NCBI RefSeq assembly: GCF_014652355.1
Contig: NZ_BMYQ01000015.1
Coordinates: forward strand, 1 to 64,000
Length of the DNA: 64,000 bases
Direction of reading: 5' to 3'
Source of the DNA: Gemmobacter lanyuensis
GTDB taxonomy: Bacteria; Pseudomonadota; Alphaproteobacteria; Rhodobacterales; Rhodobacteraceae
In this document: positions 3,564 through 20,179 of the stretch, in pieces
How positions within the stretch are numbered: the first letter of the stretch is position 1
Layout of the letters: each line of letters starts with the position of its first letter
The notes under the pieces: generated by a model
What the model was told of the DNA's origin: nothing
The model's database searches: none
The model's input: only the letters and a program-made list of their open reading frames with translations
Translations under genes and position numbers: made by a program

Positions 3564-4133
3564 TCAGTTCAAAAGGTCGCGGCCGCGATCCTGCAGGGCC
3601 TGCGCCATCAGGGCATGCAGCCAGGCCGCGACCGACGACACCTGCGACAGCGGGCGCGGATGATCGAGCGCCAGCTGCAGCGCCGCTTCGACAAGGCGGT
3701 CGGCGGCATTGGCATCGGCCATCATCAGGCGGGCGGAAAGGCGCAGCCAGGGCAGCATCGCCTCGATCGTCAATTCGGCGCGGCCCAGTTCCTGCAGCAC
3801 GACTTCCAGCGTCTCATTCCCCGCCACCGGTTTTTCCAGCCGATGCACATCAGCAAAGCGCAGGGGGATCTGTGACAGGTCCAGCGCGGAATAGAAGACG
3901 AACGGGACCCGCGACCGGCGCAGCTGATCGGCAAGATCGAAAACCTGCTCGCCCCGAAGATCGAGGCCCAGGATCGCCAGATCGGCCCCCGGTGCCTGCC
4001 GTTCGGCGGCCGCCAATGTCAGGCACGGACCCAGCACGATGGCCCTAGCGCTTCGGAAATGTTCTGCAAGCTGCTGCGCCGACAGAAGGTTGTCTTCGGC
4101 GATGAGAATACGCCGGCCAGCCAGTTGCTGCAT
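3564..4133 (-). CDS. Degenerate receiver domain fused to a sigma-region-2-like domain (reversed PhyR-like architecture)
   Basis: A 189-residue protein. Residues 7-118 are a CheY-like receiver with acidic pair E13-D14, a Ser (82) at the Thr switch position and the conserved Lys (101). The phosphoacceptor position is Gly56 (AILGLDLRG instead of ...LD...), with an Asp two residues on. Residues 125-185 (LPWLRLSARLMM...ADRLVEAALQLAL...AAWLHALM) align without a gap to sigma region 2 of the EcfG encoded at 19637-20179; I count about 16 identities in 55. PhyR has the opposite order (sigma-like first, receiver last) plus a region-4-like part, which is absent here. ATG 4133 is preferred over an upstream in-frame start because AAAGGAA lies just ahead of it. 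Possible role, inferred: binding NepR or another anti-sigma factor. Confidence 0.7.
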   Translation of the reverse strand: MQQLAGRRILIAEDNLLSAQQLAEHFRSARAIVLGPCLTLAAAERQAPGADLAILGLDLRGEQVFDLADQLRRSRVPFVFYSALDLSQIPLRFADVHRLEKPVAGNETLEVVLQELGRAELTIEAMLPWLRLSARLMMADANAADRLVEAALQLALDHPRPLSQVSSVAAWLHALMAQALQDRGRDLLN

Positions 4134-4329
4134 CCGTCGTTCCTTTCCGTTCAAAGGGCGGGGCGCGGTCAACCTGCGGCCCCCGGTGAAGCAAATATCT
4201 TTGGGCAGATGGTGACGCTGGCAATATGGGCCGGTGGGGGTGAAACCACAACCTTTGGGTGATCCGGGCGGCTGGTTTCCGCGTATATGCGCTCTTCGTT
4301 TTCTGCGCCTGCGCTGTGGCGATGCTGCG

Positions 4330-4354
4330 GGAACAAAATGGCCGGTGGGCGATT
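4330..4354 (+). promoter_or_regulatory. Weak EcfG-like promoter before glgC
   Basis: GGAAC (4330-4334) followed after 16 bases by GATT (4351-4354), 28 bases before the glgC start. Spacing and distance resemble the stress promoters at 8.7-23.8 kb, but the -10 element is off consensus (GATT rather than CGTT/GGTT). Confidence 0.3.
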
Positions 4355-4381
4355 ACCTCTTTGTCGCAAAGGAGGCATCGC

Positions 4382-5494
4382 ATGCAATCGCAGACTTCCC
4401 CTACCTTCTGTGTTCTACTCGCCGGTGGCCAAGGGTCGAGGTTGCATGAGCTGACCGCGATGGATTGCAAGCCGGCTGTTCCCTTTGCCGGGGCCCGGCT
4501 GGTGGATTTCACCATGGCCAATGCGGCGCGGTCGGGGCTTCGGCAGATGCTGGTCGCCCTACAGTATCGCCCCCAGCTTTTGGCCCGCCATCTGCGGGCG
4601 GTCTGGGGGCCGCAATTCCCCGCAGGGCTGGCGCTGTACGACGGGATGTCGGTGCAGCCGGGGGGCTATCGGGGCACTGCCGATGCCGTGCGGGCGCATC
4701 TGCCCGATCTGACCGCCAGCGGCGCGGATGAGGTTCTCGTCCTATCGGCTGATCATGTCTATCAGATGGATTACCGCGCCATGCTGCATCGCCACCGCGA
4801 AAGCGGCGCAAAGCTGACGGTCGCGGTGGATGAAATCCCCTTGGCGCAGGCCGGGCGTTTCGGCGTTTTGACCGCGGATGCGGCAGGGCGTGTCACGGCC
4901 TTTGACGAAAAGCCGCGCCATCCCCAGCCCATTGCCGACCGCCCCACCCATGCGCTGGTCAGCATGGGGATCTATGTGATCGACCGGCTCTGGCTGAGTG
5001 ACCTGCTCCGTCGTACCGACATGGATGACTTCGGTCAGGACGTCCTGCCCGAGGCGGTGGCGCAGGGGGTGGTGCAGGTTCATCGCACCGGGGCCGACTT
5101 TTACTGGCGCGATGTGGGCACGCTGGACAGTTACCGACTGGCCCAGCTGGATTTTCTTGCGACCGGAACACCGCCCCTTCTTGTGCCCGCCTCTGCACAT
5201 CTGCCGGGGCGCGAGGTGCGCCGTGCGGCCGGGCAGGGGAATGTCCTTTTGCCCGGGGCGCATCTGGGGCGGCGGGCACGGGTGCGTCAGACCATTCTGG
5301 CGCCCGGCGCGATGATCCCCGACGGGATGGTCATCGGTGAGGATCCCGACGAAGACCGCCGCTGGTTCCGTGTGACTCCTGGTGGAACAGTGCTGGTCAC
5401 GCAGTCCATGTTGGCCCGGCGACGCGCCGAACAGCAGCGGCCCTGCCAGCTGCCTTTCTATCCGTTGTCCACGGCGCAAACGCAGGGAAGCTGA
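4382..5494 (+). CDS. glgC: Glucose-1-phosphate adenylyltransferase (ADP-glucose pyrophosphorylase)
   Basis: Makes ADP-glucose from ATP and glucose-1-phosphate, the committed step of glycogen synthesis. The N-terminal nucleotide-binding motif LLAGGQGSRLHELT lacks only the usual R of KPA-type loops and is followed by DCKPAVPFAG. The sugar-phosphate site motifs GTADAVR, LSADHVYQMDY and FDEKP are present, and a left-handed beta-helix tail ends in DEDRRWFRVTPGG. At 370 residues it is shorter than the usual 420 or so. ATG 4382 is chosen over upstream in-frame codons because GGAGG precedes it. The stop lies one base before the glgX start. Confidence 0.9.
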   Translation: MQSQTSPTFCVLLAGGQGSRLHELTAMDCKPAVPFAGARLVDFTMANAARSGLRQMLVALQYRPQLLARHLRAVWGPQFPAGLALYDGMSVQPGGYRGTADAVRAHLPDLTASGADEVLVLSADHVYQMDYRAMLHRHRESGAKLTVAVDEIPLAQAGRFGVLTADAAGRVTAFDEKPRHPQPIADRPTHALVSMGIYVIDRLWLSDLLRRTDMDDFGQDVLPEAVAQGVVQVHRTGADFYWRDVGTLDSYRLAQLDFLATGTPPLLVPASAHLPGREVRRAAGQGNVLLPGAHLGRRARVRQTILAPGAMIPDGMVIGEDPDEDRRWFRVTPGGTVLVTQSMLARRRAEQQRPCQLPFYPLSTAQTQGS

Positions 5495-5495
5495 A

Positions 5496-7553
5496 ATGGA
5501 TGGCACCCATCTGCCCCGCAGCTTTGATCGGGCGCGCAGTTCCAACCATACCATCGGCGCAGAATACGACGGGGAGGGCACGAATTTCGCGCTCTTCTCC
5601 GATCATGCCGAACGGGTGGAGCTGGTGCTTTTTGATGACAGCGGCACCCATCAGACCTTTTCCGCCGATCTGCCGGATATGGCGGGCGGCATCTGGCATG
5701 GCTATCTGCGGGGAGTCGGGCCCGGAACGCGATACGGCTATCGCGTCCATGGTCCTTGGGCGCCGGAAGAGGGCCACCGCTTCAACCCGGCCAAGCTGCT
5801 GCTTGATCCCAATGCCCGCGAAATCAGCGGCGATCTGATCTGGGACGATGCTCTGTTCGGATATGTCATCGGGCAGGATGATCTGACGCGCGATGCCCGG
5901 GACAGTGCACCCTTCATGCCGAAATCGGTGGTCAGTGATCCGACCTTCGACTGGGAGGCCGACCGCGCCCTGTGCCACCCCTGGGAACAGACCGTGATCT
6001 ACGAGGCGCATCTGCGCGGCCTGACCATGCTTCACCCCGATGTGCCCGAGGCTGCGCGCGGCACCTTTTCCGGACTGGGGTCCGATGCGGTGATTGCCCA
6101 TCTGAAAGACCTTGGGGTCACGACGGTCGAGCTTTTGCCGGTTCATGCCTTTGTGCAGGATCGCCATCTGCTGCAAAAGGGGCTGCGGAATTATTGGGGC
6201 TATAATACGCTTTCCTTCTTTGCCCCGCATGCGGCCTATCTGAGAACGGGTCAGGTGCGCGAGATGAAGGCTGCGATCAAGCGGCTGCATGCTGCCGGAA
6301 TCGAGGTGATCCTCGATGTGGTCTACAACCACACCGCCGAGGGCAATGAACAGGGGCCGACCCTATCGTTCCGGGGGATCGACAATGCCTCATACTATAT
6401 GCTGATGCCGGAGCGGCGCTATTGCTATGATCCGACGGGCACGGGAAACGGCCTTGATCTTGCACATCCGATGGTCATGCGGATGGTGCTTGATAGTCTG
6501 CGTTACTGGGTGCAGGCCATGCATGTCGACGGATTCCGCTTTGATCTGGCCTCGACCCTCGGGCGGGGGCCGACAGGGTTCGACCAGCGCGCGGCCTTCT
6601 TCGCAACCGTCCTGCAAGACCCGGTGCTGAGCCGCGTCAAACTGATCGCGGAACCCTGGGATATCGGCACCGGCGGGTATCAGCTTGGGGGCTTTCCCTG
6701 GCCGTTCCGCGAATGGAACGACAAGTGCCGTGATGATCTGCGCAAGTTCTGGCGCGGGGACCAGGGCATGGTGCCCCGCCTGTCGCAGCGGCTGGCGGGG
6801 TCGCCGGTCCAATTCGACCATTCCCACCGCCCCGCGACCAGTTCCGTGAATTTCATCGCCGCCCATGACGGGTTCACCCTGTGGGATCTGCTGTCTTATG
6901 ACGCGCCCCGCAATGCGGCCAATGGTGAAGATGGTGCCGATGGTCACGGGGCGAATTACTCCGACAGCATGGGGGTCGAAGGCGAAACCGACGATGCGGA
7001 TCTGACTGCGCGTCGGCTGCGTCGGGCCAAGGCCATGCTGGCAACGCTGGTGCTGTCACAGGGGGTACCGATGGTGCAGGCAGGCGATGAATTCGGCCGC
7101 AGTCAGGATGGCAACAACAATGCCTACTGCCAGGATAACGACATCAGTTGGCTGCATTGGGACAGGATGCGCCATGAGCTTGTCGCCGCGCTGCGGGATC
7201 TGCTGGCCTTCCGGGCCGGGGCAGGCGAAAGCCTGGCGCATCCGCGCTTTGGCCGCGATGATGACGAAGGTCGCCCCAAGCTCCGCTGGCTTCATCCCAG
7301 AGGCGAGGGCATGTCCGAGGCCGACTGGCAGGACGAGGCGCTGCATCTTTTGGGGCTGGAGCTTGATCACCCGCAGCGCGGCCGCATCCTGATGCTGTTC
7401 AATGCGGCCGGCGATGCCGAATTTGCCCTGCCTGCGGGCGACTGGCAGCATGTGATCGACACGGCGGCCGATCCCGTGTCCTGTGATGCCACCTTTGCAG
7501 GAACCCTGTTCCTGCCGCGGCAAAGCGTTCAGGTCTTGCTGTCCCGGCTCTGA
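5496..7553 (+). CDS. glgX: Glycogen debranching enzyme GlgX (GH13)
   Basis: A 685-residue cytoplasmic isoamylase-type debranching enzyme that trims phosphorylase-limit dextrins from glycogen. An N-terminal CBM48 domain (about residues 20-110, GAEYDGEGTNFALFSDHAE) precedes the GH13 barrel. Catalytic regions: DVVYNHTAEG (I), GFRFDLAST with the nucleophile Asp (II), AEPWDIG with the acid Glu (III) and FIAAHDGFTL (IV). ATG 5496 is one base after the glgC stop and has AGGGAAG ahead of it. Synthesis (glgC) and breakdown (glgX) genes are thus in one operon; glgA, glgB and glgP are not in the window. Confidence 0.93.
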   Translation: MDGTHLPRSFDRARSSNHTIGAEYDGEGTNFALFSDHAERVELVLFDDSGTHQTFSADLPDMAGGIWHGYLRGVGPGTRYGYRVHGPWAPEEGHRFNPAKLLLDPNAREISGDLIWDDALFGYVIGQDDLTRDARDSAPFMPKSVVSDPTFDWEADRALCHPWEQTVIYEAHLRGLTMLHPDVPEAARGTFSGLGSDAVIAHLKDLGVTTVELLPVHAFVQDRHLLQKGLRNYWGYNTLSFFAPHAAYLRTGQVREMKAAIKRLHAAGIEVILDVVYNHTAEGNEQGPTLSFRGIDNASYYMLMPERRYCYDPTGTGNGLDLAHPMVMRMVLDSLRYWVQAMHVDGFRFDLASTLGRGPTGFDQRAAFFATVLQDPVLSRVKLIAEPWDIGTGGYQLGGFPWPFREWNDKCRDDLRKFWRGDQGMVPRLSQRLAGSPVQFDHSHRPATSSVNFIAAHDGFTLWDLLSYDAPRNAANGEDGADGHGANYSDSMGVEGETDDADLTARRLRRAKAMLATLVLSQGVPMVQAGDEFGRSQDGNNNAYCQDNDISWLHWDRMRHELVAALRDLLAFRAGAGESLAHPRFGRDDDEGRPKLRWLHPRGEGMSEADWQDEALHLLGLELDHPQRGRILMLFNAAGDAEFALPAGDWQHVIDTAADPVSCDATFAGTLFLPRQSVQVLLSRL

Positions 7554-8748: not shown

Positions 8749-8773
8749 AACCGTGGTAACGCGGAATTGTTCC
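8749..8773 (-). promoter_or_regulatory. EcfG-type promoter for the 8693-7617 operon
   Basis: On the minus strand GGAAC (8773-8769), a 17-base spacer and GTT (8751-8749), 55 bases before the mini-protein start. It is back to back with the plus-strand promoter at 8777. Confidence 0.65.
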
Positions 8774-8776
8774 GGT

Positions 8777-8801
8777 GGAACAGATTGTTCCTTTCTGGGT
8801 T
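8777..8801 (+). promoter_or_regulatory. EcfG-type promoter for the 8865 gene
   Basis: GGAAC (8777-8781), 17 bases, GTT (8799-8801), 64 bases before the oxidoreductase start. Its -35 is four bases from that of the divergent promoter. Confidence 0.65.
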
Positions 8802-8864
8802 CAGGTCATTTGCGCGCCGGGGACGGCCCGGTCTGCGCACGCCCCCTTTCAGACAGGAACGACC

Positions 8865-9830
8865 ATGGCCCGCATCGGTTATCATGCCTCGCAGGAACAG
8901 TTTTCGCCCCGCGATCTGCTTGAACTTCTTTGCCTGGCAGAGGAGGCAGGTTTTGAGGCCGCCAAATCTTCGGACCATTTTCATCCCTGGTCTGCGGCGC
9001 AGGGCCAGTCGGGCTTTGCCTGGAGCTGGATGGGCGCCGCATTGCAGGCCTGTCGTCTGCCCATGGGGCTGATCACCGCACCGGGCTGGCGCTATCACCC
9101 GGCCCTTGTGGCACAGGCCGCCGCCACGCTGGCCCAGATGTTTCCCGGACGTTTCTGGCTTGCGCTTGGCAGCGGCGAGGCGATCAACGAGGCCATCCTT
9201 GGCCGCTATTGGCCTGACAAGCCCGAACGCAATGCCCGGCTGCGGGAATGTGTCGCCATCATCCGCGCCCTGCTGGCCGGTGAGGAAGTGACCCACCGTG
9301 GCCGCGTCACCGTGGTCGAGGCGCGGCTCTGGACACTGCCGGACCAGCCGGTTCCGCTTTTTGGGGCTGCCGTGACGCCTGAAACGGCGGCCGAAGTCGG
9401 GGCTTGGGCGGACGGTTTGCTGACCGTGGGCGGGACGCCCGATCAGGTGGCCGCGGTGGTCGATGCCTTCCGGGAGGCGGGGGGGGCGGGCAAGCCCGTC
9501 CATATCCAGCACGCCCTGTCATGGGACCAGACAGAAGCCGCTGCCCTGTCGCAGGCCCGCGACCAATGGGCCCCTGTTCTGGCAGGGGGCGAGGTGAACT
9601 GGGACCTGCGCCGCCCGGCCGATTTCGATCGGCTGGGCGCATTGGTCAGCGACGATCACCTGCGCATGGCGCTTGCGATTTCCGCTGATCCGGGCTGGCA
9701 CGCCGCACGGATCGCCGCATTGGCCGAAATCGGGGATGTCGTCCACCTGCATTGCGTCGGCCGCAATCAGCGGGCCTTTCTGGAGGTCTTCGGCCGCGCT
9801 GTCCTGCCGGATCTTCGGCTCCCGGCCTAG
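8865..9830 (+). CDS. Luciferase-like flavin oxidoreductase (non-F420 flavinoid type)
   Basis: A 321-residue TIM-barrel protein of the luciferase-like monooxygenase class, resembling the group called non-F420 flavinoid oxidoreductases. Visible family features are MARIGYHASQEQF at the start, SSDHFHPW near residue 40, the core FWLALGSGEAINE and RLRECVAIIRALLAGEEV. ATG 8865 follows AGGAACGACC; upstream in-frame codons have no such signal. It reads from an EcfG-type promoter and ends tail to tail with the isochorismatase-like gene, the two stop codons sharing CTAG. The substrate is unknown. Confidence 0.75.
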   Translation: MARIGYHASQEQFSPRDLLELLCLAEEAGFEAAKSSDHFHPWSAAQGQSGFAWSWMGAALQACRLPMGLITAPGWRYHPALVAQAAATLAQMFPGRFWLALGSGEAINEAILGRYWPDKPERNARLRECVAIIRALLAGEEVTHRGRVTVVEARLWTLPDQPVPLFGAAVTPETAAEVGAWADGLLTVGGTPDQVAAVVDAFREAGGAGKPVHIQHALSWDQTEAAALSQARDQWAPVLAGGEVNWDLRRPADFDRLGALVSDDHLRMALAISADPGWHAARIAALAEIGDVVHLHCVGRNQRAFLEVFGRAVLPDLRLPA

Positions 9831-10441
9831 GGGCGGGGCCAGTCAGCCAGCACCTCGGCCGTGGTGGCCAGCTCGATCTGCGTGTCGAAGCGCCGGGCAT
9901 AGAGCATCATCAACGCATCATGCGTTTCATCCGACGCGCTGCATAGCGCATCGCTGACAAGGATCACCCGAAAGCCGCGATCCACGGCGCCAAGGACCGT
10001 GGCCAGCACGCATTGATCTGTCTCTCCCCCGCTGACGATCAGGGTATCGACCCGGCCGCGTCCGATCATTCGATCCAGATCGGGCGCGAACCAGGGAGAG
10101 TAGACCATCTTGTCCACGATCCGCGCCGGGGGCACGAACGCATCAAGCGGCGGCGCGAGGTTCAGCGCCGCATCCGGCAGATGGCTGCGGGTGACCCGCT
10201 CCCACTTGCGGTAATAGCGCTGCCAGCTGCCCGGCAGGTCGCTGGCGGTCAGGGGCGGAATGAAGCGGGTAAAGATGGTCCGTGCCGGATCATGGCCCAC
10301 AAGGGCCGTGACCGCGGGCAGGATCCGCTGGAACCAGGCCATGGACCAGGTGTATCCGGGGCCGAACAGGCGCTGCATGTCGACACAGAGATGCAGGCAG
10401 TCCGGACCCGGCGGGCCATGGCGCAGGCCGTGCAGCATCAT
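9827..10441 (-). CDS. Isochorismatase-like cysteine hydrolase
   Basis: A 204-residue alpha/beta hydrolase of the isochorismatase superfamily. The catalytic triad is visible: Asp in LCVDMQRLF (about residue 21), Lys in VDKMVYSPW (about 110) and Cys in SGGETDQCVLATVLGAVDRG (about 143). The cis-peptide motif is also here. It starts 6 bases after the katE stop, so it is probably co-transcribed with catalase, but no clear ribosome binding site is seen for either adjacent ATG (10441, 10438). The substrate is unknown; nicotinamidase- or peroxyureidoacrylate-like amide hydrolysis are possibilities. Confidence 0.8.
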   Translation of the reverse strand: MMLHGLRHGPPGPDCLHLCVDMQRLFGPGYTWSMAWFQRILPAVTALVGHDPARTIFTRFIPPLTASDLPGSWQRYYRKWERVTRSHLPDAALNLAPPLDAFVPPARIVDKMVYSPWFAPDLDRMIGRGRVDTLIVSGGETDQCVLATVLGAVDRGFRVILVSDALCSASDETHDALMMLYARRFDTQIELATTAEVLADWPRP

Positions 10442-10447
10442 CGGGCG

Positions 10448-12730
10448 TCAGCTTTTGATCACAAGGGTCCGGGTCCATTGCCGCAGCTTGCGGCAGGCCC
10501 GCAGAAAATCGCCCGCATTGGTGCCGTCGAGCGGGATCATCCCGTCATCGGCCCCAGTCTGAATGCCCTGCGACACCAGCAGAGGTGTGGCCCCCGGTGT
10601 AAAGCCCATGATCTTGCAATGGGCGAAAGCGTCGCTCACGAAATCGCGGGCGGGCAGACTTTTGGCCAGCATCGCCGCGCCATCGGCATCCAGCAGCAGC
10701 GCCACCGCATCAAAGAGAACCGACGGCGCGCCGTCGATCATGTGATGGGCCGGGATCATGGTCCCATCCGCCGCCCGCGCCCCGCCGACTTTGGGGGCGA
10801 TGATTTCCACGACCGCGCCTTCCGCCTGAAATGTGGCCTGCAGATCGTGCAGGAGGGCCGTTTCGATCCCGTCGCAGACCAGCACGCCCAGCTTGCGCCC
10901 GGCAAAGTTCATCGGCCCATTGGCCAGAATGCTCAGCGCGGGCGACAGCGGCAGATCCTGTGCGGGCAGGGCGGCATCGGCCGGATGTGGCATGCTGTCG
11001 ATGCCCAGCTTTTCTGCCACCATTTCGGCCATGGCACGGTCGATCTGCATCAGATGGGCCACCATCCTGATCCGGATCATGGGCATTTCGCATTTCGACA
11101 GCTCGAAGGTGAGGGCGTCGATGATATGGCGCTGTTCGATTGGCGTCTGGCTGCGGTAGAACTGTCGGGCCTGACTGTAGTGGTCGGCAAAGCTTTCGGG
11201 GCGCAGGCGTTGCTTCGGCCCGGTCGGCTCGGTCGCGTGGCTGCGGTGACCGCGCCTCGGGTCTTCGCGCGGGCCACGGCCCCAGGAATTGGGCTGGTAA
11301 TTCACCCGACCCCGCGGGTTGTGCATCGCCATGTGGCCATCCTGCTGGAAATGCGCGAAGGGGCATTTCGGCGCATTGATGGGCAGATGCGTGAAATTGG
11401 GGCTGCCCAACCGTTTGAGCTGTGTGTCGAGATAGGAAAAGTTGCGCCCCTGCAGCAGCGGATCATCGGAAAAATCGATGCCGGGCGGCACATTCTGCGT
11501 CATGAAGGCGATCTGTTCGGTTTCCGCGAAAAAGTTGTCCGGCATCCGGTCCAGCACCATCCGCCCCACCGGGAGGGGGGGTAAGATCTCTTCCGGGATG
11601 AGCTTCGTGGGGTCCAGAACGTCGAAATCGAAGCTGTCGGCAAAGTCCTGATCAAAAAGCTGCATCTGCAGTTCCCATTCGGGGAAATTCCCGCTCTGGA
11701 TTGCCGACCAAAGATCGCGGCGGTGGAAATCGGGGTCTGCGCCATTGATCTTGACGGCCTCATTCCACAGGACCGATTGCAGGCCCAGCTTGGGTTTCCA
11801 CAGGAATTTCACGAAGGTCGACCGATCTTCGGCATCCACCAGCCGGAACGTGTGAACCCCGAAACCTTCCATGAAGCGGAAGGATCGCGGAATGGCTCGG
11901 TCGGACATGATCCACATGATCATATGCATCGATTCCGGCGTCAGCGAGATGAAATCCCAGAAATTGTCATGTGCCGATTGCGCCTGCGGGAAGGCGCGGT
12001 CGGGTTCAGGCTTTACCGCATGGACCATGTCGGGAAACTTGATCGCATCCTGGATAAAGAAAACCGGAATATTGTTGCCGACCAGATCCCAGTTTCCTTC
12101 ACGCGTGTAAAATTTGACCGCAAAGCCCCGCACATCCCGCGCCAGATCAAATGAGCCTTTGGACCCCGCGACCGTTGAAAAGCGCACAAAGACCGGGGTG
12201 ATTTCGCCCGACCGTTGGAAGATGTCCGCGCGGGTCAGATGCGAAAGGTTCTGGTACGTCTCAAAATAGCCATGCGCACCATAGCCGCGGGCATGGACCA
12301 CCCGTTCAGGGATGCGTTCGTGGTCAAAGTGAAAAAGCTTTTCGCGAAAATGGAAATCCTCGATTAGCGCCGGGCCGCGGGCACCAACCTTCAGGCTGTT
12401 CTGGTCGTCGGCGACCGGGGTGCCCTGCGCCGTGGTCAGAACGTCCTGATCGGTGGCGGTCTGGTGCCATTCGCCCCCGGCCCCGCGCGTAAGTGTCTGG
12501 TCGTGGACCCGGGCCTCTTGCGACGTTGGCGTCAGCCGTCCGACCTCGGGGGCGGGGGGAATGCTGCCCGGCTGCTTGGTGTTGGTATCGGGGCGGTGAT
12601 CCGGATCAATGCGGTGGCGCCCTGCCGGGTCGATCTGCTGCTGGCGCTGGTCGATCACACGGGGGGCCACTTGGCGCAGGTTCTCGGGGCTTTCAGTGTT
12701 GCTTGCATCGCTGTCACGTTCATATGCCAT
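10448..12730 (-). CDS. katE: Large-subunit (clade 2) catalase HPII-type
   Basis: A 760-residue monofunctional haem catalase that breaks down hydrogen peroxide. The catalytic His146 is in [12 protein letters not shown], the distal Asn in [13 protein letters not shown], and the haem-ligating Tyr in [14 protein letters not shown]. After the catalase core (about 110-600) comes a C-terminal flavodoxin/DJ-1-like domain (about 625-760, [10 protein letters not shown]), the mark of large-subunit catalases. The first 100 residues are polar and disordered. It lies in the stress island, but no EcfG motif was found ahead of it, so it may use another sigma factor. Confidence 0.95.
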
Positions 12731-12801
12731 TTGCAGATCCGCCTTATGCTGGGGCCATCGGCGATGCCCGCCGGACTGCGGCCCTGTTCGCTCAACAGGA
12801 T

Positions 12802-12825
12802 GCCAGCGCCGGGGACGGCGCTGGC
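12802..12825 (-). terminator. Hairpin after the PRC-barrel gene
   Basis: A perfect 10-base stem (GCCAGCGCCG / CGGCGCTGGC) around a 4-base loop, between the PRC-barrel gene stop (12856) and the katE start (12730). There is no clear T-run, so it may terminate weakly or only stabilise the mRNA end. Confidence 0.5.
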
Positions 12826-12855
12826 AGGAACCCCCGGGCTGGGCCCGGCTTCGGG

Positions 12856-13704
12856 TCAGTTCTCGGCCGGGCTGGTTGCGGTGCCGAGGGTCGAGGGATC
12901 CTCGGCCGCATAGGTGGGAAGTGCCTCGAGCTGTTCGCGCGTCCAGGGCAGGTAAACCCGGGTTTCGCTGTCGCTGCGATAGATCTGCAGGTCGGCAATC
13001 GGCACGGCCACGCGGTGTTCGCCCATACCCAGGAAACCGCCGATATCAAGAACGGCATGGGTCGCGTTTCCGGCCGTTTCGGTGGTCGCCCCTTCGGTGA
13101 CGCCCGTGGTGCCGGCGGTCATATCGGTTGACGTGCCAGCGGTTCCATCGGTGGTCGTGGTGGTATCGGCCCCCGGGACCGGGTCGCCCGCGCTATCGGT
13201 GCCGGTCGTGCCGGTCGCATCAGGGGTCTGGGCGGTGCTGTCGGTATCCATCGTGCCGGTGGCATTGTCGGTGCCGGTCGTTGCCGTGCCCTCTTGTGTC
13301 AGGGTGCCGTCGGCCGGGGCATCACCCGCAGTGCCGGTTGCCGTGTCGGTCGCAGTGCCGGTCGAGGTGTCCGACATGCTGCCTGTCGTCGCATCTGCGC
13401 CCGTTGCCGCGGGGGCGCTGCCGCCCGATACAGCCTTGTCGAGTACAAGGTCATGGACCGTGCCGATGGCATCCCCTGCGGTGTCATAGATGGTTGCACC
13501 CAGCAGGTCTTCGGCGGTCAGCGCCATGTCCTGCCGCTCAAACCCCTCGGGGGCGGTGATGGTCGGCGCGGTGGTCCCGTCCATGGTTGTGGTGCCCGTT
13601 TCCGCGGTTCCAGTTTCCGAGGTCCCGGTCTCGCTCGTCTGTGCAATCGCACCGGCCACGCCCAGTCCGGTGGCAAGAATGGTGGTCAAAAGCAAGTTTT
13701 TCAT
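12856..13704 (-). CDS. Secreted PRC-barrel protein with a long Thr/Gly/Asp-rich insert
   Basis: A 282-residue exported protein. Residues 1-21 form a Sec signal peptide ([22 protein letters not shown]). A PRC-barrel half is seen at 62-90 ([28 protein letters not shown]), then about 125 residues almost only of Thr, Gly, Asp, Ala and Ser (92-215), then the rest of the barrel at 216-262 ([21 protein letters not shown]...[13 protein letters not shown]). The barrel is thus split by a low-complexity loop. Start supported by CGGAGATC. It sits in the stress island; function unknown, probably envelope-related. Confidence 0.75.
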
Positions 13705-13862
13705 GACTTTGATCTCCGTTTCAGTGTCGTCTGTGGTGGCGACAAGGGATTTCCAAAAGCTGCCCCTAGCCCACCGCGCAGATCCTGCGGTGGAGGGGCC
13801 AGAATGGCGGCCAGATTTCAGGAAGCGTCGAGGGCCCCGGCCGCCTGACCCGAATGCCCCGG

Positions 13863-14369
13863 TCAGCGACCGGCGGGCAGATCGGCCGCATCGCGCGCAA
13901 GGAAGGCCCGCGTCGTTTCATCCATATGGTCGAACAGCCAGTCGGCCATGTTCTGTTCCTCGACCATGCTTTTCTCGAACAGGCTGACGGCGTCGGCATC
14001 ACCCAGTTGGCGCGCCGTGGCGATCAGCACCTTGTAGGCGATGATCTCCATATGTTCGAAAGTGTAGCTGGCCATGCCACCCTTCACGACTTCGTCCTCG
14101 GCAAACATGCCGCTCAGGGCCTGGCCCGTGGCGGCCATCTTGCCCATCGCATCCATCACCATCGAGGTTCCGGCCGCGCGGCTGTCCAGAAGCCCGCGCA
14201 GCACCGCCGCCTGTTCCTGCGTTTCCGCGATATGCTGTTCGATGCGCGCGCTGAGGTCGGGATAATGCTCAAGCCGCGAAAGCATCCCTTTCATCATCGT
14301 AAGCGCTTGTTCCTCCATGGCATGGGCATCGCGCAGCCAAGCGATGTAGTGATTGCGGAGTTCGTCCAT
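13863..14369 (-). CDS. DUF892 (YciE/YciF-like) ferritin-like protein
   Basis: A 168-residue all-helical protein of the DUF892 ferritin-like family: WLRDAHAMEEQALTMMKGML, then repeated helices with E/H metal-ligand candidates (RIEQHIAETQEQAAVL, FEHMEIIAYKVLI, EKSMVEEQNMADW). This is the four-helix layout with a di-iron-like E..H pattern. Start at 14369 with AAGGAAC just upstream. It lies downstream of the 14464 disordered protein, separated by a hairpin. A second family member is at 22161. Members are commonly induced by stress; biochemical role is not settled. Confidence 0.75.
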   Translation of the reverse strand: MDELRNHYIAWLRDAHAMEEQALTMMKGMLSRLEHYPDLSARIEQHIAETQEQAAVLRGLLDSRAAGTSMVMDAMGKMAATGQALSGMFAEDEVVKGGMASYTFEHMEIIAYKVLIATARQLGDADAVSLFEKSMVEEQNMADWLFDHMDETTRAFLARDAADLPAGR

Positions 14370-14424
14370 TGACTGTTCCTTCGGGCAAGCATCGCGCGGG
14401 GCGACAAGAAAGACGGGAAGCGGA

Positions 14425-14454
14425 GGGCAGGGGCGCAAAGCGCCGCTGCCCCCT
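14425..14454 (-). terminator. Imperfect hairpin between the 14464 and 14369 genes
   Basis: GGGCAGGGGCGC and GCGCCGCTGCCC around AAA form a near-perfect stem with one or two mismatches. It lies right after the stop of the Arg/Gly/Asp-rich repeat gene; no clear T-run. Confidence 0.4.
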
Positions 14455-14463
14455 TTTGCCCCC

Positions 14464-14960
14464 TCACCGGCGGCGGTTTTCCCAGCCGCGGCGCGAGGCC
14501 TCGGAATGACCTTCCGAGTCCCCGAACCAGCCGCCTTGGCCATGGTCGCGGCCATAATCATCGTCACGACCGCGCCCGCGCGACGACCGGCGGTCATCGT
14601 CCTCATACCGGCTGGACGACCGGCTACCCGACCCGCGATCATCGTCACGGCGGTTTTCCCAACCGCGGCGCGAGGCTTCGGAATGGCCTTCCGGATCGCC
14701 GAACCATCCGCCTTGACCATGATCGCGGCTATAATCGTCGCCCCGCCCGCGCGACGACCGGCGGTCATCATCGTCATAGCGGCTGGACGAACGCCCACCG
14801 GACCCGCGGTCATCCTCGCGGCGGTGTTCCCAGCCCCGGCGCGAAGCCTCGGAATGGCCTTCATAATCGCCGAACCATCCGCCTTGACCATGATCGCGGC
14901 TATAATCGTCGCCCCGCCCGCGCGACGACCGGCGGTCATCGTCATCGTAGCGGCCCATCG
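14464..14960. repeat. Three long tandem DNA repeats inside the disordered-protein gene
   Basis: The segment beginning GAACCA at 14524, 14701 and 14872 recurs with periods of 177 and 171 bases. The last two copies are nearly identical over more than 50 bases, indicating recent duplication. Confidence 0.75.
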
Positions 14961-15204
14961 AACGGCTGCCGCGCCCGCGGTCTTCGTCCTCATAGCGCCC
15001 GCGCTGATCGCGGTCGTCATATCCCCCGCGGCCCGAGCGTCCGCGCCCGCCGCTGTCCTCATCGCTCATGAAGCGGCCGCGCGAATCCCGTTCGCGGTCG
15101 TTGCTGCCCGAGCTGCCACCGGACCGGCTGCTGCCGCGACGATCATCATCGCTGACAAAGCGACCGCGCGAGTCGCGTTCGGGCATGTCATTGTATCTGG
15201 GCAT
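14464..15204 (-). CDS. Highly charged disordered protein with three 57-59-residue repeats
   Basis: A 246-residue protein almost entirely of Arg, Asp, Gly and Ser, with no hydrophobic core. Two short units of the form ERDSRGRFxSD begin it. Three long repeats follow, each containing GQGGWFGD then GHSEASRRGWE (arms near residues 110-135, 167-192, 226-246). The WFGD/GHSEASRRGWE block resembles the Gly-rich hydrophilin/KGG stress motif. Start at 15204 with GAGGAGGAAAAC ahead. An EcfG-type promoter lies 140 bases upstream. A hydrophilin-like desiccation or osmotic protectant is inferred, not shown. Confidence 0.65.
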   Translation of the reverse strand: MPRYNDMPERDSRGRFVSDDDRRGSSRSGGSSGSNDRERDSRGRFMSDEDSGGRGRSGRGGYDDRDQRGRYEDEDRGRGSRSMGRYDDDDRRSSRGRGDDYSRDHGQGGWFGDYEGHSEASRRGWEHRREDDRGSGGRSSSRYDDDDRRSSRGRGDDYSRDHGQGGWFGDPEGHSEASRRGWENRRDDDRGSGSRSSSRYEDDDRRSSRGRGRDDDYGRDHGQGGWFGDSEGHSEASRRGWENRRR

Positions 15205-15344
15205 GTTTTCCTCCTCAGGAAATGGCGGTCTCAGAGGCGCCCGGGCCGAATGCCGGGGCCTTGCGGGTGGACCCTCTGGGCCCCGATGCGGGGCCAGGAT
15301 CAGGGGTCCGTATGGGCATGCCGTCTGGGGCATGTGGTCGTTTC

Positions 15345-15369
15345 AACAGGCGGCGGGCGGGGATGTTCC
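15345..15369 (-). promoter_or_regulatory. EcfG-type promoter for the 15204 gene
   Basis: Minus strand GGAAC (15369-15365), 17 bases, GTT (15347-15345). It is about 140 bases before the start codon, and lies within the region just after the 15423 gene stop. Bases 15205-15422 hold no other gene. Confidence 0.55.
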
Positions 15370-15422
15370 GGGCTTTCTGCCGCATTTGCGACCGGTCGGC
15401 GGAAACTGCCGTGCGGTGGGCC

Positions 15423-15821
15423 TCAGCAGTCGTTGCCCTTGTCGATCCGGCCGGGGTGCTGGCGGTCTTCGCACATGGCGCTATCCGGGTTGCGCCCCCG
15501 TGGAATGGCGGGGCTGTCGGTCCCCTGGGCCGTGGCATGGCGCGCCACCTCGGCGGGGGTGACGCGCCGTTCTTCGCGCGTCGGCCCCGGTGCGGTTGGC
15601 CCGCGTTCGGCATCCTGTTCGGCGCGGCTGGTTGCTTCCCAGGCGCGGCTTCCGAAAAACCCCTCCTCGGCAGCGCCCTGCACATTTTCGGGGGGCTGCG
15701 GGTTTCCCTTGCGAAACTCGGCCGGTGTGTGGGGCGATCCTTCGTGATCGTCCTGCGCGTTCTGGCGCGGGGTCGACAGGGGGGCGCGTTTCTCGGCGGC
15801 GGGTTTGGGTTCGTTGGGCAT
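15423..15821 (-). CDS. Small disordered hydrophilic protein of unknown function
   Basis: A 132-residue polar protein rich in Pro, Ala, Glu and Arg, with no hydrophobic segment. It starts MPNEPKPAAEKRAP. Near the middle is GFFGSRAWEATSRAEQDAERG and, further on, REERRVTPAEVARHA. ATG 15821 is preferred to an ATG six codons upstream because CAGGAGGCC is placed well for it. A weak EcfG-like promoter is upstream. I do not recognise the family; a stress-linked hydrophilic protein is inferred from location. Confidence 0.55.
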   Translation of the reverse strand: MPNEPKPAAEKRAPLSTPRQNAQDDHEGSPHTPAEFRKGNPQPPENVQGAAEEGFFGSRAWEATSRAEQDAERGPTAPGPTREERRVTPAEVARHATAQGTDSPAIPRGRNPDSAMCEDRQHPGRIDKGNDC

Positions 15822-15853
15822 GATGGCCTCCTGGGACATGGCTTTCAGCATCC

Positions 15854-15879
15854 AATCCGCCGATGGGGGGGAATGTTCC
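15854..15879 (-). promoter_or_regulatory. Weak EcfG-like promoter for the 15821 gene
   Basis: Minus strand GGAAC (15879-15875), then GATT (15857-15854) after 17 bases. The -10 element is off consensus. Its GGAACATTC is an exact inverted copy of that in the divergent promoter at 15898. Confidence 0.4.
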
Positions 15880-15897
15880 GCGCCAAGCGCGCTAGCG

Positions 15898-15923
15898 GGA
15901 ACATTCGCCGCCGACGCGGCGTT
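15898..15923 (+). promoter_or_regulatory. EcfG-type promoter for the DUF421 gene
   Basis: GGAAC (15898-15902) and CGTT (15920-15923) with a 17-base spacer, 33 bases before the start codon. The fit to consensus is exact. Confidence 0.7.
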
Positions 15924-15955
15924 TCCCCGGGTCCTTCCCAAAACCAGAGGTTGCC

Positions 15956-16636
15956 ATGGAAACGGTCGTGCCCTTTGATCTGCAGCGCATGGTGCTGGGC
16001 GATCAGCCCCCCCTGTTTCTGGCCGAGATCCTGTTCCGAATTGCCGTGATCTGGCCCTGGACGATGCTCTTGTTGCGCTGGATCGGGGGGCGCAGCATCT
16101 CGCAGCTGTCGCTGGTCGAATTTTTGCTGGTCATCGCGCTGGGATCGGCGGTGGGGGACAGCCTGTTCTATCCGGACGTTCCTCTTGTGCATGCGATGCT
16201 GGTGATTTTCGTGATCATTGCCATCGACAAGCTGGTTGATCAGGCGATCCGCCTGTTCCGTCCGGCCAAGGGCATTTTTGATGGCCAGCCGGTCGAGGTG
16301 CTGCGCGACGGTGTCATCCACATGTCTGCGCGCGGCACACGCCAGATCGGCAATCTGGAGTTGATGGAACTTTTGCGGTTGAAAGGGGTCGAAAACCTTG
16401 GATCGGTCCGATGTGCCTATATGGAAACTTCGGGCGCGCTGTCGGTTTTTGCTGCTGATCCACCGCAGCCCGGCCTTCGCATCGTGCCGCCGGTCGAATG
16501 CGTGCCGGCCGATTGCAGCCCGGATCAGGCCCGTTGCTGTGTCAATTGCGGGCAAATGGATGACGCCGCGTCCCACTGTCCGAATTGCGGCACGGACGGT
16601 TGGGCCCCCGCGATCGCAGCCCCCAAATACCGCTGA
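15956..16636 (+). CDS. DUF421 (YetF-like) membrane protein with C-terminal zinc ribbon
   Basis: A 226-residue inner-membrane protein. Three membrane helices lie at about 22-40, 53-70 and 76-92 (LVEFLLVIALGSAVGDSLF, VHAMLVIFVIIAIDKLVD), followed by the cytosolic YetF domain with VLRDGVIHMSARG and LMELLRLKGVENLGSVRCAYMET. The tail has two CxxC pairs (CVNCGQ, CPNCGT, residues 195-215), a zinc-ribbon addition not found in the basic family. Promoter is EcfG-type. YetF-family proteins are linked to spore or stress membranes in other bacteria; role here unknown. Confidence 0.8.
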   Translation: METVVPFDLQRMVLGDQPPLFLAEILFRIAVIWPWTMLLLRWIGGRSISQLSLVEFLLVIALGSAVGDSLFYPDVPLVHAMLVIFVIIAIDKLVDQAIRLFRPAKGIFDGQPVEVLRDGVIHMSARGTRQIGNLELMELLRLKGVENLGSVRCAYMETSGALSVFAADPPQPGLRIVPPVECVPADCSPDQARCCVNCGQMDDAASHCPNCGTDGWAPAIAAPKYR

Positions 16637-16654
16637 TACAAAGCCCTGCTGGCA

Positions 16655-16680
16655 GGAACATTCCGCCCCGCGACCGGGTT
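16655..16680 (+). promoter_or_regulatory. EcfG-type promoter for the 16715 gene
   Basis: GGAAC (16655-16659), 18 bases, GTT (16678-16680), i.e. GGAAC-N17-GGTT, 35 bases before the ATG. Confidence 0.6.
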
Positions 16681-16714
16681 CATCCCGGTCAGAGGCAATG
16701 GATTGGATGTCGAC

Positions 16715-16972
16715 ATGATTCCCTGGCTTCGTGTGTTCCTGGTCGCGATCTGGGTCGCGTCCATCGCGGGCGCAGCCCTGATTTTCGGTCTGGCGATGGG
16801 GTTTTATTCCAGCACGACCTTTTTCTGGTCTGGGGTGGCAGGTCTGGTCATCGGCTTGCCCGCAGCCCTTGCTAACTGGGTATGGCTGCGCCCGCGTCGG
16901 GCCGGTCAGGCAGGTTGGAATGGTGGTCTGTTCCGCTGGTTGCGTGATCATTCCTATTGGCGCCGCGCCTGA
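16715..16972 (+). CDS. Small two-helix membrane protein
   Basis: An 85-residue protein with two membrane helices (about 4-28, WLRVFLVAIWVASIAGAALI; about 36-55, FFWSGVAGLVIGLPAALANW) and a basic, aromatic tail (LRPRRAG...WRRA) predicted in the cytosol. ATG 16715 is chosen; an in-frame TTG lies four codons upstream. It reads from its own EcfG-type promoter and is followed by a strong terminator. No family recognised. Confidence 0.6.
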   Translation: MIPWLRVFLVAIWVASIAGAALIFGLAMGFYSSTTFFWSGVAGLVIGLPAALANWVWLRPRRAGQAGWNGGLFRWLRDHSYWRRA

Positions 16973-17001
16973 CGCCAAGATGCCCTAAAAAGCGATGCCA
17001 T

Positions 17002-17031
17002 AAAAAAGGCCAGCCCCGCGGCTGGCCTTTT
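17002..17031. terminator. Rho-independent terminator after the 16715 gene
   Basis: Stem GGCCAGCC (17008-17015) / GGCTGGCC (17020-17027) with flanking A-run and T-run, giving a 12-base stem when the A:T pairs are counted. Confidence 0.85.
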
Positions 17032-17042
17032 CCGATGTCCGC

Positions 17043-17071
17043 AGAGGCCGTGCCCTCTGGGCACGGCCTCT
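17043..17071 (-). terminator. Hairpin after the 17077 gene
   Basis: A perfect 13-base stem (AGAGGCCGTGCCC / GGGCACGGCCTCT) with a 3-base loop just past the stop codon. No T-run on the minus strand. Confidence 0.6.
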
Positions 17072-17076
17072 CGTCC

Positions 17077-17667
17077 TCACATCGGCGGCGGGGTCCGCAG
17101 GCGCGCCTGACGTTCGGTCAGCGCATCGTCATAGCGCCAGCCATCGCTTTCAAAGCGGCTACGCAGGTCGCCGAACCCGACCGACGCCACCTGATCAAGC
17201 GTCGCCGTAACCGTTGGGCGCAGCTCTTCGGGAAAGCGCACCGTCAGGGCCACATTGCCACGCCGCATAGCTTCGTCAAAGACCGGCGCATCTTCATCGC
17301 TGATGCCAAGGTCGGTCAGTGCCCCGATGGTGCCGCCAACCACGGCGCCCCCGACCGCCCCGACCGCCGTCGCAGCCAGCCAGCCCGCTGCGACCAGCGG
17401 GCCGATCCCCGGAATGGCGATCATGCCCAGACCCGCCAGAAGCCCGGCGCCGCCGCCAGCGACAGCCCCGACCCCGGCCCCGGTCGCCGCGCCGGATGTT
17501 TCGGCGTCGGTCGCATCCATCGTCGAATCGTAGGTGTCGTAATGGGAGCGGAGGCGTTCATCCCCCAGCATCCCCACCTCGATGCGCGGGTTGTTCAACG
17601 CCTGGAGCGCCGACCGCGCCCGAGCGGCTGCGGTAAAGTCTTCATATACGCGTGTGATGACAGCCAT
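17077..17667 (-). CDS. Stress protein with glycine-zipper membrane core
   Basis: A 196-residue protein. The N-terminal part (AVITRVYEDFTAAARARSAL...IEVGMLGDE) resembles the general stress protein 17M fold. The middle (about 60-125) is a Gly/Ala-rich double hydrophobic stretch with GxxxG spacing (GAGVGAVAGGGAGLLAGLG, AVGGAVVGGTIGAL), a glycine-zipper membrane insert. The tail (GNVALTVRFPEELRPTV) repeats the alpha-beta pattern. ATG 17667 is preferred, with AGGATGG well placed. It starts 15 bases after the stop of the secreted EF-hand-like gene, so both share the EcfG-type promoter at 18247. Confidence 0.65.
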   Translation of the reverse strand: MAVITRVYEDFTAAARARSALQALNNPRIEVGMLGDERLRSHYDTYDSTMDATDAETSGAATGAGVGAVAGGGAGLLAGLGMIAIPGIGPLVAAGWLAATAVGAVGGAVVGGTIGALTDLGISDEDAPVFDEAMRRGNVALTVRFPEELRPTVTATLDQVASVGFGDLRSRFESDGWRYDDALTERQARLRTPPPM

Positions 17668-17681
17668 GTTCTGTTCCATCC

Positions 17682-18206
17682 TCAGTTCGTTGCGGGGGTG
17701 GTGACGACGTTGCCCTTGTAGTCGATGGCAACCGAGACGGCTTTGCCACCAACCATGCCGGTGCCGCGCCAGATGCCCTGGTCATCCTTGGTCAGCGCCG
17801 AAACATCCGTGACATTCCAGGCAATTGCGCGTTCCTGCGCCTGTTCTTCGGTGAAGCTGTTCGCCCCTTCGAAGGGCGCCCCGGCTTCAGGCGTGTCCTC
17901 GGCCCAGGCCGGGGCGTTGCAGAGCTGCAGGAACTGGTCACGATCCAGTCCGTCAGACCCGGCGGCGACCCCGTCCACCGAGGCGCGGGCATGGTCACGC
18001 GGGGATTCCGCCTCGCTCAGATAGCCGTTGGCATCGGCATCCAGCGTGGTGAATTCACCTTCGCAATCGGGGGCCGTGCCCGCCATTGTTGTGCTGTCTG
18101 CGGTCGCGGCATCCGGGGCTGCGGGCAGGGTGCTGTCTTGCGCCAAGACCGCGGAAGGGGCGGCCAGTGTCGCCAGAAGCAGGTAAGCCAAGCTCTTGTT
18201 CGGCAT
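17682..18206 (-). CDS. Secreted EF-hand-like protein
   Basis: A 174-residue exported protein with a Sec signal (residues 1-22, LAYLLLATLAAPSAVLAQ). An EF-hand-like calcium loop is visible at about 57-68 (DADANGYLSEAE), and a second partial loop follows (GSDGLDRDQF). The C-terminal half has an alternating beta pattern (GIWRGTGMVGGKAVSVAIDYKGNVV), resembling periplasmic PepSY-like small domains. Start supported by AGGAGATTAC. EcfG-type promoter 41 bases upstream. Possible periplasmic calcium-binding stress protein; family not certain. Confidence 0.65.
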   Translation of the reverse strand: MPNKSLAYLLLATLAAPSAVLAQDSTLPAAPDAATADSTTMAGTAPDCEGEFTTLDADANGYLSEAESPRDHARASVDGVAAGSDGLDRDQFLQLCNAPAWAEDTPEAGAPFEGANSFTEEQAQERAIAWNVTDVSALTKDDQGIWRGTGMVGGKAVSVAIDYKGNVVTTPATN

Positions 18207-18246
18207 GTGTAATCTCCTGAACAGAAGGGGATGGGACGGCGGGTTC

Positions 18247-19323: not shown

Positions 19324-19563
19324 ATGAACAACTCGGTCATTCCTTTTCCCGAGGAACCCTCAGACCGAGCTTCGGAGGAGGAGGCCCGCCTTCGAGCGGC
19401 CGCGCAGGCCCTGCTGGATGCCGTGGCCGCAGAACCCGTCCCCGACCGCCTGCGCCACCTTGCGGCAGAGCTGGGTCGCGCGCTCGAGGAACAGCGGCGC
19501 GCGCAAACCGCGCCGAAGCCGACAGATGACGTCCCGGGCAGCGACAACTCGCCCATAGGGTGA
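19324..19563 (+). CDS. nepR: NepR-type anti-sigma factor of the general stress response
   Basis: A 79-residue protein. Its core VAAEPVPDRLRHLAAELGRAL (34-54) matches the short helical NepR motif with the conserved E-P-[IV]-P-D-R. Acidic, disordered arms flank it. In the known pathway NepR binds EcfG and holds it inactive until phosphorylated PhyR displaces it. It lies directly upstream of the ecfG gene, the standard arrangement. There is no good ribosome binding site, and no EcfG promoter ahead of it was found; the only one is between nepR and ecfG. The window contains no full-length PhyR. Confidence 0.75.
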   Translation: MNNSVIPFPEEPSDRASEEEARLRAAAQALLDAVAAEPVPDRLRHLAAELGRALEEQRRAQTAPKPTDDVPGSDNSPIG

Positions 19564-19570
19564 AAAACCG

Positions 19571-19595
19571 GGAACCGTTTTTCTGCCCCACCGTT
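19571..19595 (+). promoter_or_regulatory. EcfG autoregulatory promoter between nepR and ecfG
   Basis: GGAAC (19571-19575), a 16-base spacer, then CGTT (19592-19595): an exact fit to the published EcfG consensus. It lies 42 bases before the ecfG ATG. Confidence 0.75.
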
Positions 19596-19636
19596 TTGTT
19601 TTGCAAACTTCGGCACCAGGGGGAGGGAGACCGGGC

Positions 19637-20179
19637 ATGTCCACGGCGCATGAGAGTGACCCACAGCAACCTGCCAATACCACCGACGAACTGATCGAGA
19701 TGATCCCCGCGCTGCGCATATATGCGCGCAATCTGATGCGGGGGACGGATGAGGTGGATGACCTTGTCCAGGAAACCTTGATGAAGGCTTTGGCAAATGT
19801 CTCGAGCTTTCAGCCGGGAACCAATTTGCGGGCCTGGCTTTTCACCATCATGCGGAATTCTTTCCTGACCCGCGTCGTCAAGCGCACGCGCGAACCCGTG
19901 GGCAATGCCGATTGCGTGTCGGGGACTCTCGTCTCTTTTCCCAAGCACGACGCCCATATCGCGGGCAACCGGGTCATGGCCGCAATCGAGCGTCTGCCCC
20001 CCCAATACCGCGAGGCGCTGATCCTCGTGTTTCTGATGGGGGAAAGCTATCAGGATGTGGCCGAGATCTGCGGCTGCGCCATCGGCACCGTAAAAAGCCG
20101 TATCAACCGGGCCCGCCATATGGTGATCGAGGATCTGGGTGCGACCCGCTTAGACGACCTCATCGCCGCAAACTACTGA
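19637..20179 (+). CDS. ecfG: EcfG-family general stress sigma factor
   Basis: A 180-residue ECF sigma factor. Region 2 lies at about 18-84 (IPALRIYARNLM...VDDLVQETLMKAL...LRAWLFTIMRN), and region 4 at about 115-165 (IERLPPQYREALILVFLMGESYQDVAEICGCAIGTVKSRINRAR). NLRAWLFTIMRN and FLMGESYQ are typical of ECF group 15. AGGGGGAGGGAGACC precedes the ATG. It is predicted to transcribe the stress-island genes from GGAAC-N16/17-CGTT promoters, and it carries one itself. Regulated by NepR upstream; the PhyR and HWE-kinase partners are not in the window. Confidence 0.9.
   Translation: MSTAHESDPQQPANTTDELIEMIPALRIYARNLMRGTDEVDDLVQETLMKALANVSSFQPGTNLRAWLFTIMRNSFLTRVVKRTREPVGNADCVSGTLVSFPKHDAHIAGNRVMAAIERLPPQYREALILVFLMGESYQDVAEICGCAIGTVKSRINRARHMVIEDLGATRLDDLIAANY

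Follow-up and report, generated by a model that had tools for sequence, protein, structure and literature searches.

A receiver–sigma-region-2 protein of Gemmobacter lanyuensis belongs to an apparently undescribed alphaproteobacterial family linked to paralogous NepR–EcfG genes

Introduction

Phosphorylation of PhyR frees its sigma-like domain, which then takes NepR from the sigma factor EcfG, as set out in passages of PMC8103513 and PMC3892343. The window, that is, the whole stretch of 64,000 nucleotides of Gemmobacter lanyuensis DNA analysed here, encodes a protein in which related domains stand in the other order: PhyR has its sigma-like part first and its receiver last, whereas in the window protein the receiver (residues 7–118) precedes a sigma-2-like domain (residues 120–189). 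The first-pass annotation of this DNA described it as a reversed PhyR-like protein. The locus raises the question of whether such a protein is an isolated oddity or a member of a family, how it is related to PhyR and EcfG, and which regulatory circuit it could serve.

Results and Discussion

The Window Protein and Its Receiver Domain

3564..4133, minus strand: receiver and sigma-2-like protein, 189 aa; intact ORF, ATG at 4133
3780..4115, minus strand: receiver domain, residues 7–118; phmmer against solved chains and AlphaFold model
3966..3968, minus strand: codon of Gly56, the phosphoacceptor position; Asp in 35/37 rows of the family alignment
3567..3776, minus strand: sigma-region-2-like domain, residues 120–189; helices 123–137, 141–157 and 168–183; Pfam, models and profile comparison

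According to phmmer against solved chains, the N-terminal half is a receiver, with matches to 2lpm (E 2e-5, residues 8–117) and to SdrG, 5ieb (E 2.4e-5, residues 7–104). These SdrG/Sma0114-type proteins are the closest solved receivers by sequence, but they end after the receiver, whereas the window protein adds a 71-residue sigma-2-like output. The AlphaFold model built on the 37-row family alignment (mean pLDDT 85) consists of a receiver half and three helices, and in the whole-model fold search the receiver half matches receivers with VIA Z up to 14.3. Pfam Response_reg, which matches 28 of the 37 family members, has no match on the window's contig or in the window protein alone, the receiver being too diverged. 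Residues E13/D14, S82 and K101 are all kept and residue 56 is Gly, in line with the receiver boundaries, acidic pair, Lys and Gly phosphoacceptor site given in the first-pass annotation. The phosphoacceptor Asp, a feature of PhyR, is absent from the window protein, and this copy is unable to accept phosphate at residue 56. An error in the single codon of Gly56 is conceivable.

The Sigma-Region-2-Like C-Terminal Domain

The C-terminal part had been aligned without gaps to EcfG region 2 over residues 126–180, with about 16 of 55 positions said to be identical; the count against the EcfG encoded in the window is 17/55, ungapped, a level reached by none of 2000 shuffles (highest shuffle 15). At the profile level, hhalign relates the domain to region 2 of EcfG (ECF15) over 67 ungapped columns (probability 98.3, score 79.5) and to PhyR over 68 ungapped columns (probability 94.0, score 46.2), the underlying sets being unequal (41 rows for EcfG, 14 for PhyR); column-shuffled controls, 20 for each, gave at most 6.3 for EcfG and 1.5 for PhyR. 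Pfam PhyR_sigma2 (PF22029) matches residues 123–176 of the protein searched alone (E 4.8e-6, 26.9 bits, cut-off 27) and reaches 28.9 bits, above the cut-off, in the genome search; it is matched at E ≤ 0.1 by 36 of the 37 family members. Region 4 (PF22233) is found neither in the window protein (E ≤ 1) nor in the 37 members (E ≤ 0.1), and the protein stops after the third helix of region 2, so that its lack of region 4 was correctly recognised from the start. While EcfG has regions 2 and 4, the window protein has region 2 only, fused behind a receiver.

Since receivers dominated the whole-model fold search, which was barely informative on the C-terminal part, the 71-residue domain was also modelled alone (mean pLDDT 87.7). 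This model aligned to sigma region 2 (Z 9.8) and to the PhyR–NepR complex 3t0y (Z 8.2). In the structural alignment to 23 chains, eight sigma factor or PhyR rows lie at Z 7.2–9.8, values under the caution level of the aligner for helical bundles, followed by 9n9q_C (6.7) and by a clearly unrelated row (4.5). Foldseek yielded no match of the lone domain at E ≤ 0.001 (best E 1.1); 10 of the 17 rows in its list are sigma factors or PhyR, and the list also includes 9n9q_C, a chain of a transcription complex. The C-terminal profile compared with solved structures retrieved the sigma factors 5uxx (E 5e-4), SigR 1h3l and SigC 2o7g, and, more weakly, several PhyRs; nine out of ten rows at E ≤ 1 are sigma factors or PhyR, only three of the rows being at E < 0.01. 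Taken together, the Pfam, profile, fold and identity results confirm what the first-pass annotation had observed and proposed to check against PhyR and EcfG, and, judged by its sequence, the C-terminal half is homologous to sigma region 2 of EcfG/PhyR.

Homology to a sigma factor allows for another function, namely, that the domain binds the clamp of core RNA polymerase and acts as a competitor or co-sigma, not as a NepR decoy. The domain shares with EcfG region 2.2 the LV..TL..A pattern, which is missing from the PhyR rows, its profile is nearer to EcfG than to the smaller PhyR set, and a split sigma2/sigma4 system, SigO–RsoA, is described in passages of PMC8103513. However, region 4 is absent, with no second sigma half noticed alongside in a non-systematic search, the basic residues of the third region-2 helix of EcfG are mostly gone from the sigma-2-like domain in the profile alignment, and the family is recurrently linked to NepR-like ORFs (see below); we regard polymerase binding as very unlikely.

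Spread and Conserved Residues of the Family

The window protein is not a lone oddity. The search for its architecture yielded 44 non-redundant loci (47 ORFs minus three duplicates) in several families of Alphaproteobacteria, and the protein is a member of what is apparently an undescribed family, for which we use the name RR-sigma2. A scan of named genomes gave 38 of the loci, including those from Mesorhizobium, Shinella, Aquibium, Labrys, Martelella, Tabrizicola, Roseivivax and Paracoccus, genera that we take, partly from the records and otherwise from general knowledge, to belong to Hyphomicrobiales and Rhodobacterales. As the search for these 38 loci used the motif [AS]ADRLVEx[AT]L, the conservation of its residues is partly due to selection; members found without the motif have IADRVVE (L033), AAERLVE (L105 and L106) and TGDHLVA (L107) instead. 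Counts over the 44 loci do not represent independent events because of near copies (three from Labrys; L105 and L106; L125 and L129).

The full-length profile, scored for eight candidates per genome, matched at least five genomes (six copies) at 247 bits or more among 394 genomes of the same taxonomic family as the window; the next among the matches listed drops to 100.5 bits, and the listed matches after it are confined to the receiver or lie mainly in it. Among 385 genomes of the class, the window's own excluded, three (G434, G659, G417) have a full-length match at E ≤ 1e-25. Here, “full-length” denotes a match spanning more than 140 of the 193 profile positions; L148 is without its start. 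Similar proteins also occur on plasmids, in 34 records with at least 80% of the query covered; among the 25 of them listed, those that carry an annotation are called “response regulator” or “hypothetical protein”.

The receiver residues are nearly invariant over the 37 rows of the family alignment, which was drawn from the named genomes with L148 and L160 left out: D14 in 37/37, E13 in 36/37, D56 in 35/37, S/T82 in 37/37 and K101 in 36/37. Only the window protein, with Gly, and the second Carideicomes copy, with Glu, depart at position 56. Retention of Asp56 in 35 rows indicates that the family as such is probably phosphorylatable and that the window protein is a degenerate case within it. It also narrows the earlier suggestion of phosphate-independent behaviour, which may still be proposed for the window member and one other, and not for the family, which keeps the Asp.

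In Carideicomes alvinocaridis, the second copy (L032:1541-2116, the same as L145) has Glu at the phosphoacceptor position, possibly as a phosphomimic, and the first copy (L031, L123) keeps Asp.

Relation to PhyR and Single-Domain Regulators

PhyR (PF22029, PF22233 and a receiver; NF006623/PRK09191) resembles the family in uniting a receiver and a sigma-2-like domain in one protein, but has regions 2 and 4, whereas the RR-sigma2 family is without region 4. The curated PhyR model NF006623 gives the window protein 22.2 bits, with a cut-off of 240. Both halves of PhyR group apart from those of the family: PhyR receivers form their own group in the receiver tree (SH-aLRT 100), away from the family, and PhyR sigma2 is apart from that of the family in the sigma-2 tree, which has three groups, is unrooted and is based on few columns. 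By the receiver tree and searches, the receiver of the family is nearest to SdrG-type and other single-domain regulators. The AU test rejects neither a single clade of family and PhyR receivers (p 0.359) nor a single clade of family receivers with L153 left out (p 0.584). A simple domain swap of PhyR is thus unsupported by the receiver tree, though the AU test keeps the union. “Reversed PhyR” holds as a description of the layout, but is doubtful as an account of the origin, given that the sigma-2 domain is nearer to EcfG and the receivers stand apart in the tree, with the same reservation about the AU test.

One full-length member, L153:9977-10552, has a receiver that falls outside the receiver group of the family in the tree; by its sequence, it possibly is an independent fusion.

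Genes Linked to the Family

Many members have a PhyR-like neighbourhood, with genes for a NepR-like protein, EcfG and an HWE kinase and an EcfG promoter upstream. For the window copy, the nepR-like and ecfG genes are 15 kb off, with no kinase near.

NepR-like ORFs were searched for with a profile built from four ORFs, that of the window included. They occur within 1.5 kb in 20 of the 44 loci and within 10 kb in 31, three of the 31 being seed loci, for which the profile is circular because their own ORFs seeded it. The same profile had no hit among 16,596 ORFs of reversed DNA from the same loci or in 182,682 bases of other loci. The ORFs share, roughly, the motif E-x-V/T-P-x-x-L-x-x-LA-x-x-LQ-x-x-L; ten of them compared with Pfam NepR all fall below the cut-off (four at E 0.006–0.026, six with no match). 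This class is wider than the family: 23 of 149 genomes of the window's taxonomic family match at E ≤ 0.01, three of which are member genomes, as do 20 of the 146 without a detected member. At E ≤ 0.1, all eight member genomes match, four of them having supplied profile rows.

An ecfG gene is present in 13 of the 44 loci, including that of the window at 15 kb. In another 13-of-44 count, again with the window, no NepR-like ORF or ecfG lies within 10 kb, several of these loci ending at contig ends. In the ecfG tree, one group of 15 rows is tied to the family (support 93/87, not starred): eleven rows are near family genes, L003 and L098 are beside the members of L033 and L107, and two are at other places in member genomes (G051, G272). 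The 13 ecfGs adjoining phyR sit in another group (support 92/91). In L033 and L107, which come from different families, the regulator is convergent with ecfG and the NepR-like ORF precedes the regulator. A Shinella plasmid record contains a compact set of a sigma factor, a 49-aa NepR-like ORF and a response regulator, and the order in a Martelella record is “CheR family methyltransferase”, response regulator, hypothetical protein, ferritin-like protein, sigma factor.

Kinases were searched for by phmmer with one kinase as the query. In 14 of the 44 loci, an HWE-type kinase is no more than 1 kb from the member, a count of adjacency that has no control set; 28 loci have one at any distance, and 15 of these 28 show the H-box pattern. 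According to Pfam, four kinases adjoining members have the CheB-CheR-PAS-HWE_HK composition and one, in Tabrizicola, is PAS-HWE_HK. An EcfG-type promoter, defined by a pattern slightly looser than the consensus given in passages of PMC12148442 and PMC4814048, is found upstream of 17 of the 44 members vs. 2.9 expected. The analysis thus shows the architecture, the conserved active-site residues of most members and a genomic link to NepR-like ORFs, paralogous ecfGs and HWE-type kinases, a link that ties the family to the general stress response.

The CheB-CheR-coiled coil-PAS-HWE_HK fusion kinases, of about 1040 aa, are at L129:6315-9416, L141:6509-9634, L137:10604-13786 and L107:10461-13613. 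On the Martelella plasmid, a gene of like size in the same place is named only “CheR family methyltransferase”.

SdrG and MrrA have a role in the stress response, and the family could likewise modulate the canonical pathway, for example as a phosphate sink or integrator whose C-terminal helices do no more than dimerise or dock to a kinase. The affinity of the receiver to SdrG-type and other single-domain regulators is consistent with this, as are the presence of canonical phyR in all five member genomes checked and, in G051, the location of the family gene 12 kb from phyR. However, nearly all members have an output domain that is conserved and homologous to sigma-2, the family accompanies a paralogous ecfG group, and the window copy is unable to take up phosphate at residue 56. 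This role therefore appears distinctly unlikely.

The Second NepR–EcfG Pair in the Window and the Fate of the Window Copy

19324..19563, plus strand: NepR-like anti-sigma gene of the second set, the proposed partner; Pfam NepR E 0.0092, below cut-off
19571..19595, plus strand: EcfG-type promoter motif GGAAC-N17-GTT, just upstream of ecfG; motif search
19601..20179, plus strand: EcfG-type sigma factor of the paralogous group, the proposed final target; ATG at 19637; Pfam and tree

The canonical phyR, ecfG and HWE/HisKA2 kinase genes of the G. lanyuensis genome are together on contig 12, with a canonical-type NepR ORF between phyR and ecfG. The second nepR–ecfG pair is in the window, 15 kb from the RR-sigma2 gene. 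Its NepR-like gene, which the first-pass annotation had placed at 19324, is indeed present there, weak as it is in Pfam; the NepR-like profile has two matches in the genome, this one being the best, though it is one of the profile's own rows, and the other (E 0.02) being at the canonical phyR locus. No kinase was found near the window gene in its locus, and HWE or HisKA2 had no match at E ≤ 0.001 outside the canonical phyR locus in an assembly listed as 99.95% complete. The window member is thus without both the phosphoacceptor and a dedicated kinase of the HWE/HisKA2 class, a coincidence seen in this single case. In its closest Asp56 relatives, namely L136 and L147 of Tabrizicola and L143 from a metagenome assembly, the upstream DNA includes an HWE-type kinase gene at a distance of about 4.1 kb.

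These losses could mean that the family is functional and the window copy is a decaying remnant with no activity left. Besides Gly56 and the missing kinase, the EcfG promoter motif is absent from the 350 bp upstream of the window gene, and 10 further genomes of the genus yielded no relative. On the other hand, the ORF is intact, and among the 29 columns conserved in at least 90% of the other rows the window protein differs only at position 56 (D56G). Its end branch (0.34) is shorter than the tree median (0.44), and the second nepR–ecfG pair has been kept 15 kb away. Decay is, in our estimation, unlikely.

A Proposed Switch for a Second EcfG Circuit

Our preferred reading, held with moderate confidence and derived from the combined analysis, is that the family probably serves a second EcfG circuit as its anti-anti-sigma switch, and that the window copy, should it have any activity, does not depend on phosphorylation at residue 56. 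The linkage to NepR-like ORFs, the paralogous ecfG group, the kinases and the EcfG promoters support the predicted capture of the NepR-like protein, which would free the paralogous sigma factor (EcfG2). In most members, an HWE-type kinase would phosphorylate the SdrG-like receiver, and this would expose the sigma-2-like domain. The exposed domain would imitate region 2 of EcfG and draw the NepR-like protein away from EcfG2, just as PhyR relieves EcfG1 of NepR. PhyR binds NepR through sigma2 and sigma4 together, and the family would have to manage with region 2.

Given Gly56 and the lack of an HWE/HisKA2 kinase outside the canonical locus, the window copy is presumably not switched by phosphorylation. 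Its domain may be constitutively available, the balance being set by the ratio of the three proteins, or another partner may be in control. A phosphate-free role is plausible in view of Rubellimicrobium, both PhyRs of which bind NepR unphosphorylated according to passages of PMC12148442. Only tentatively would we go further and suggest a second sigma-mimicry switch in Alphaproteobacteria, in which a receiver with sigma region 2 alone, half of the PhyR clamp and in the opposite domain order, controls a paralogous NepR–EcfG pair, and from which the window lineage might have shed the kinase and the phosphoacceptor, leaving a decoy that is independent of phosphorylation and governed by the amounts of the proteins.

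The kind of mechanism, sigma-factor mimicry, is known; the receiver-first, region-2-only layout is apparently undescribed. A search of the open-access literature gave no description of a protein with the receiver first and sigma region 2 last, in agreement with the first-pass annotation, which knew of none; passages of PMC5830050, PMC3892343, PMC4814048, PMC8103513, PMC8999054, PMC7083833 and PMC6599016 contain no such architecture. Mext_0132 of Methylobacterium extorquens, an EcfG paralogue of sigma region 2 only, shares region 2 without region 4, but its description in passages of PMC4814048 mentions no receiver.

As of 2013, extra EcfG copies were present in about half of completed alphaproteobacterial genomes and had not been satisfactorily explained (passages of PMC3892343). 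The RR-sigma2 family offers a candidate regulator and a candidate anti-sigma factor for one group of these extra EcfGs, which makes the question directly testable. If the proposed switch is real, it would show how little of a sigma factor suffices to displace an anti-sigma factor and that response-regulator sigma mimicry exists in two domain orders, and the window copy would provide a natural example of this kind of switch after loss of the phosphorylation site.

Stress and Glycogen Genes around the Members

The window contains 16 EcfG-type promoter motifs (GGAAC-N16-18-GTT) in 64 kb vs. 3.3 expected, a number reached by none of 100 shuffles, and 13 of them fall into positions 8749-23802. This region, apparently a stress-regulon island, has genes for a catalase, a luciferase-like monooxygenase, a BON-domain protein, the nepR–ecfG pair, a Cu/Zn superoxide dismutase and a DUF892 protein. 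In the Tabrizicola-type loci L136, L143 and L147, catalase and luciferase-like genes are within about 1.2 kb of the member, and in the window, at 4–6 kb; their presence near the member in both cases, at different spacing, suggests that the region has been rearranged but kept together.

Glycogen genes also recur near members (window 4259-7553; L204:4883-8570; L202:8444-8579). Beside the window gene these are a glgC-like nucleotidyltransferase gene, identified by Pfam, and a glgX-like gene, identified by eye; glgA/glgX are near the member in Ensifer canadensis, and glgA is about 4 kb away in Shinella zoogloeoides.
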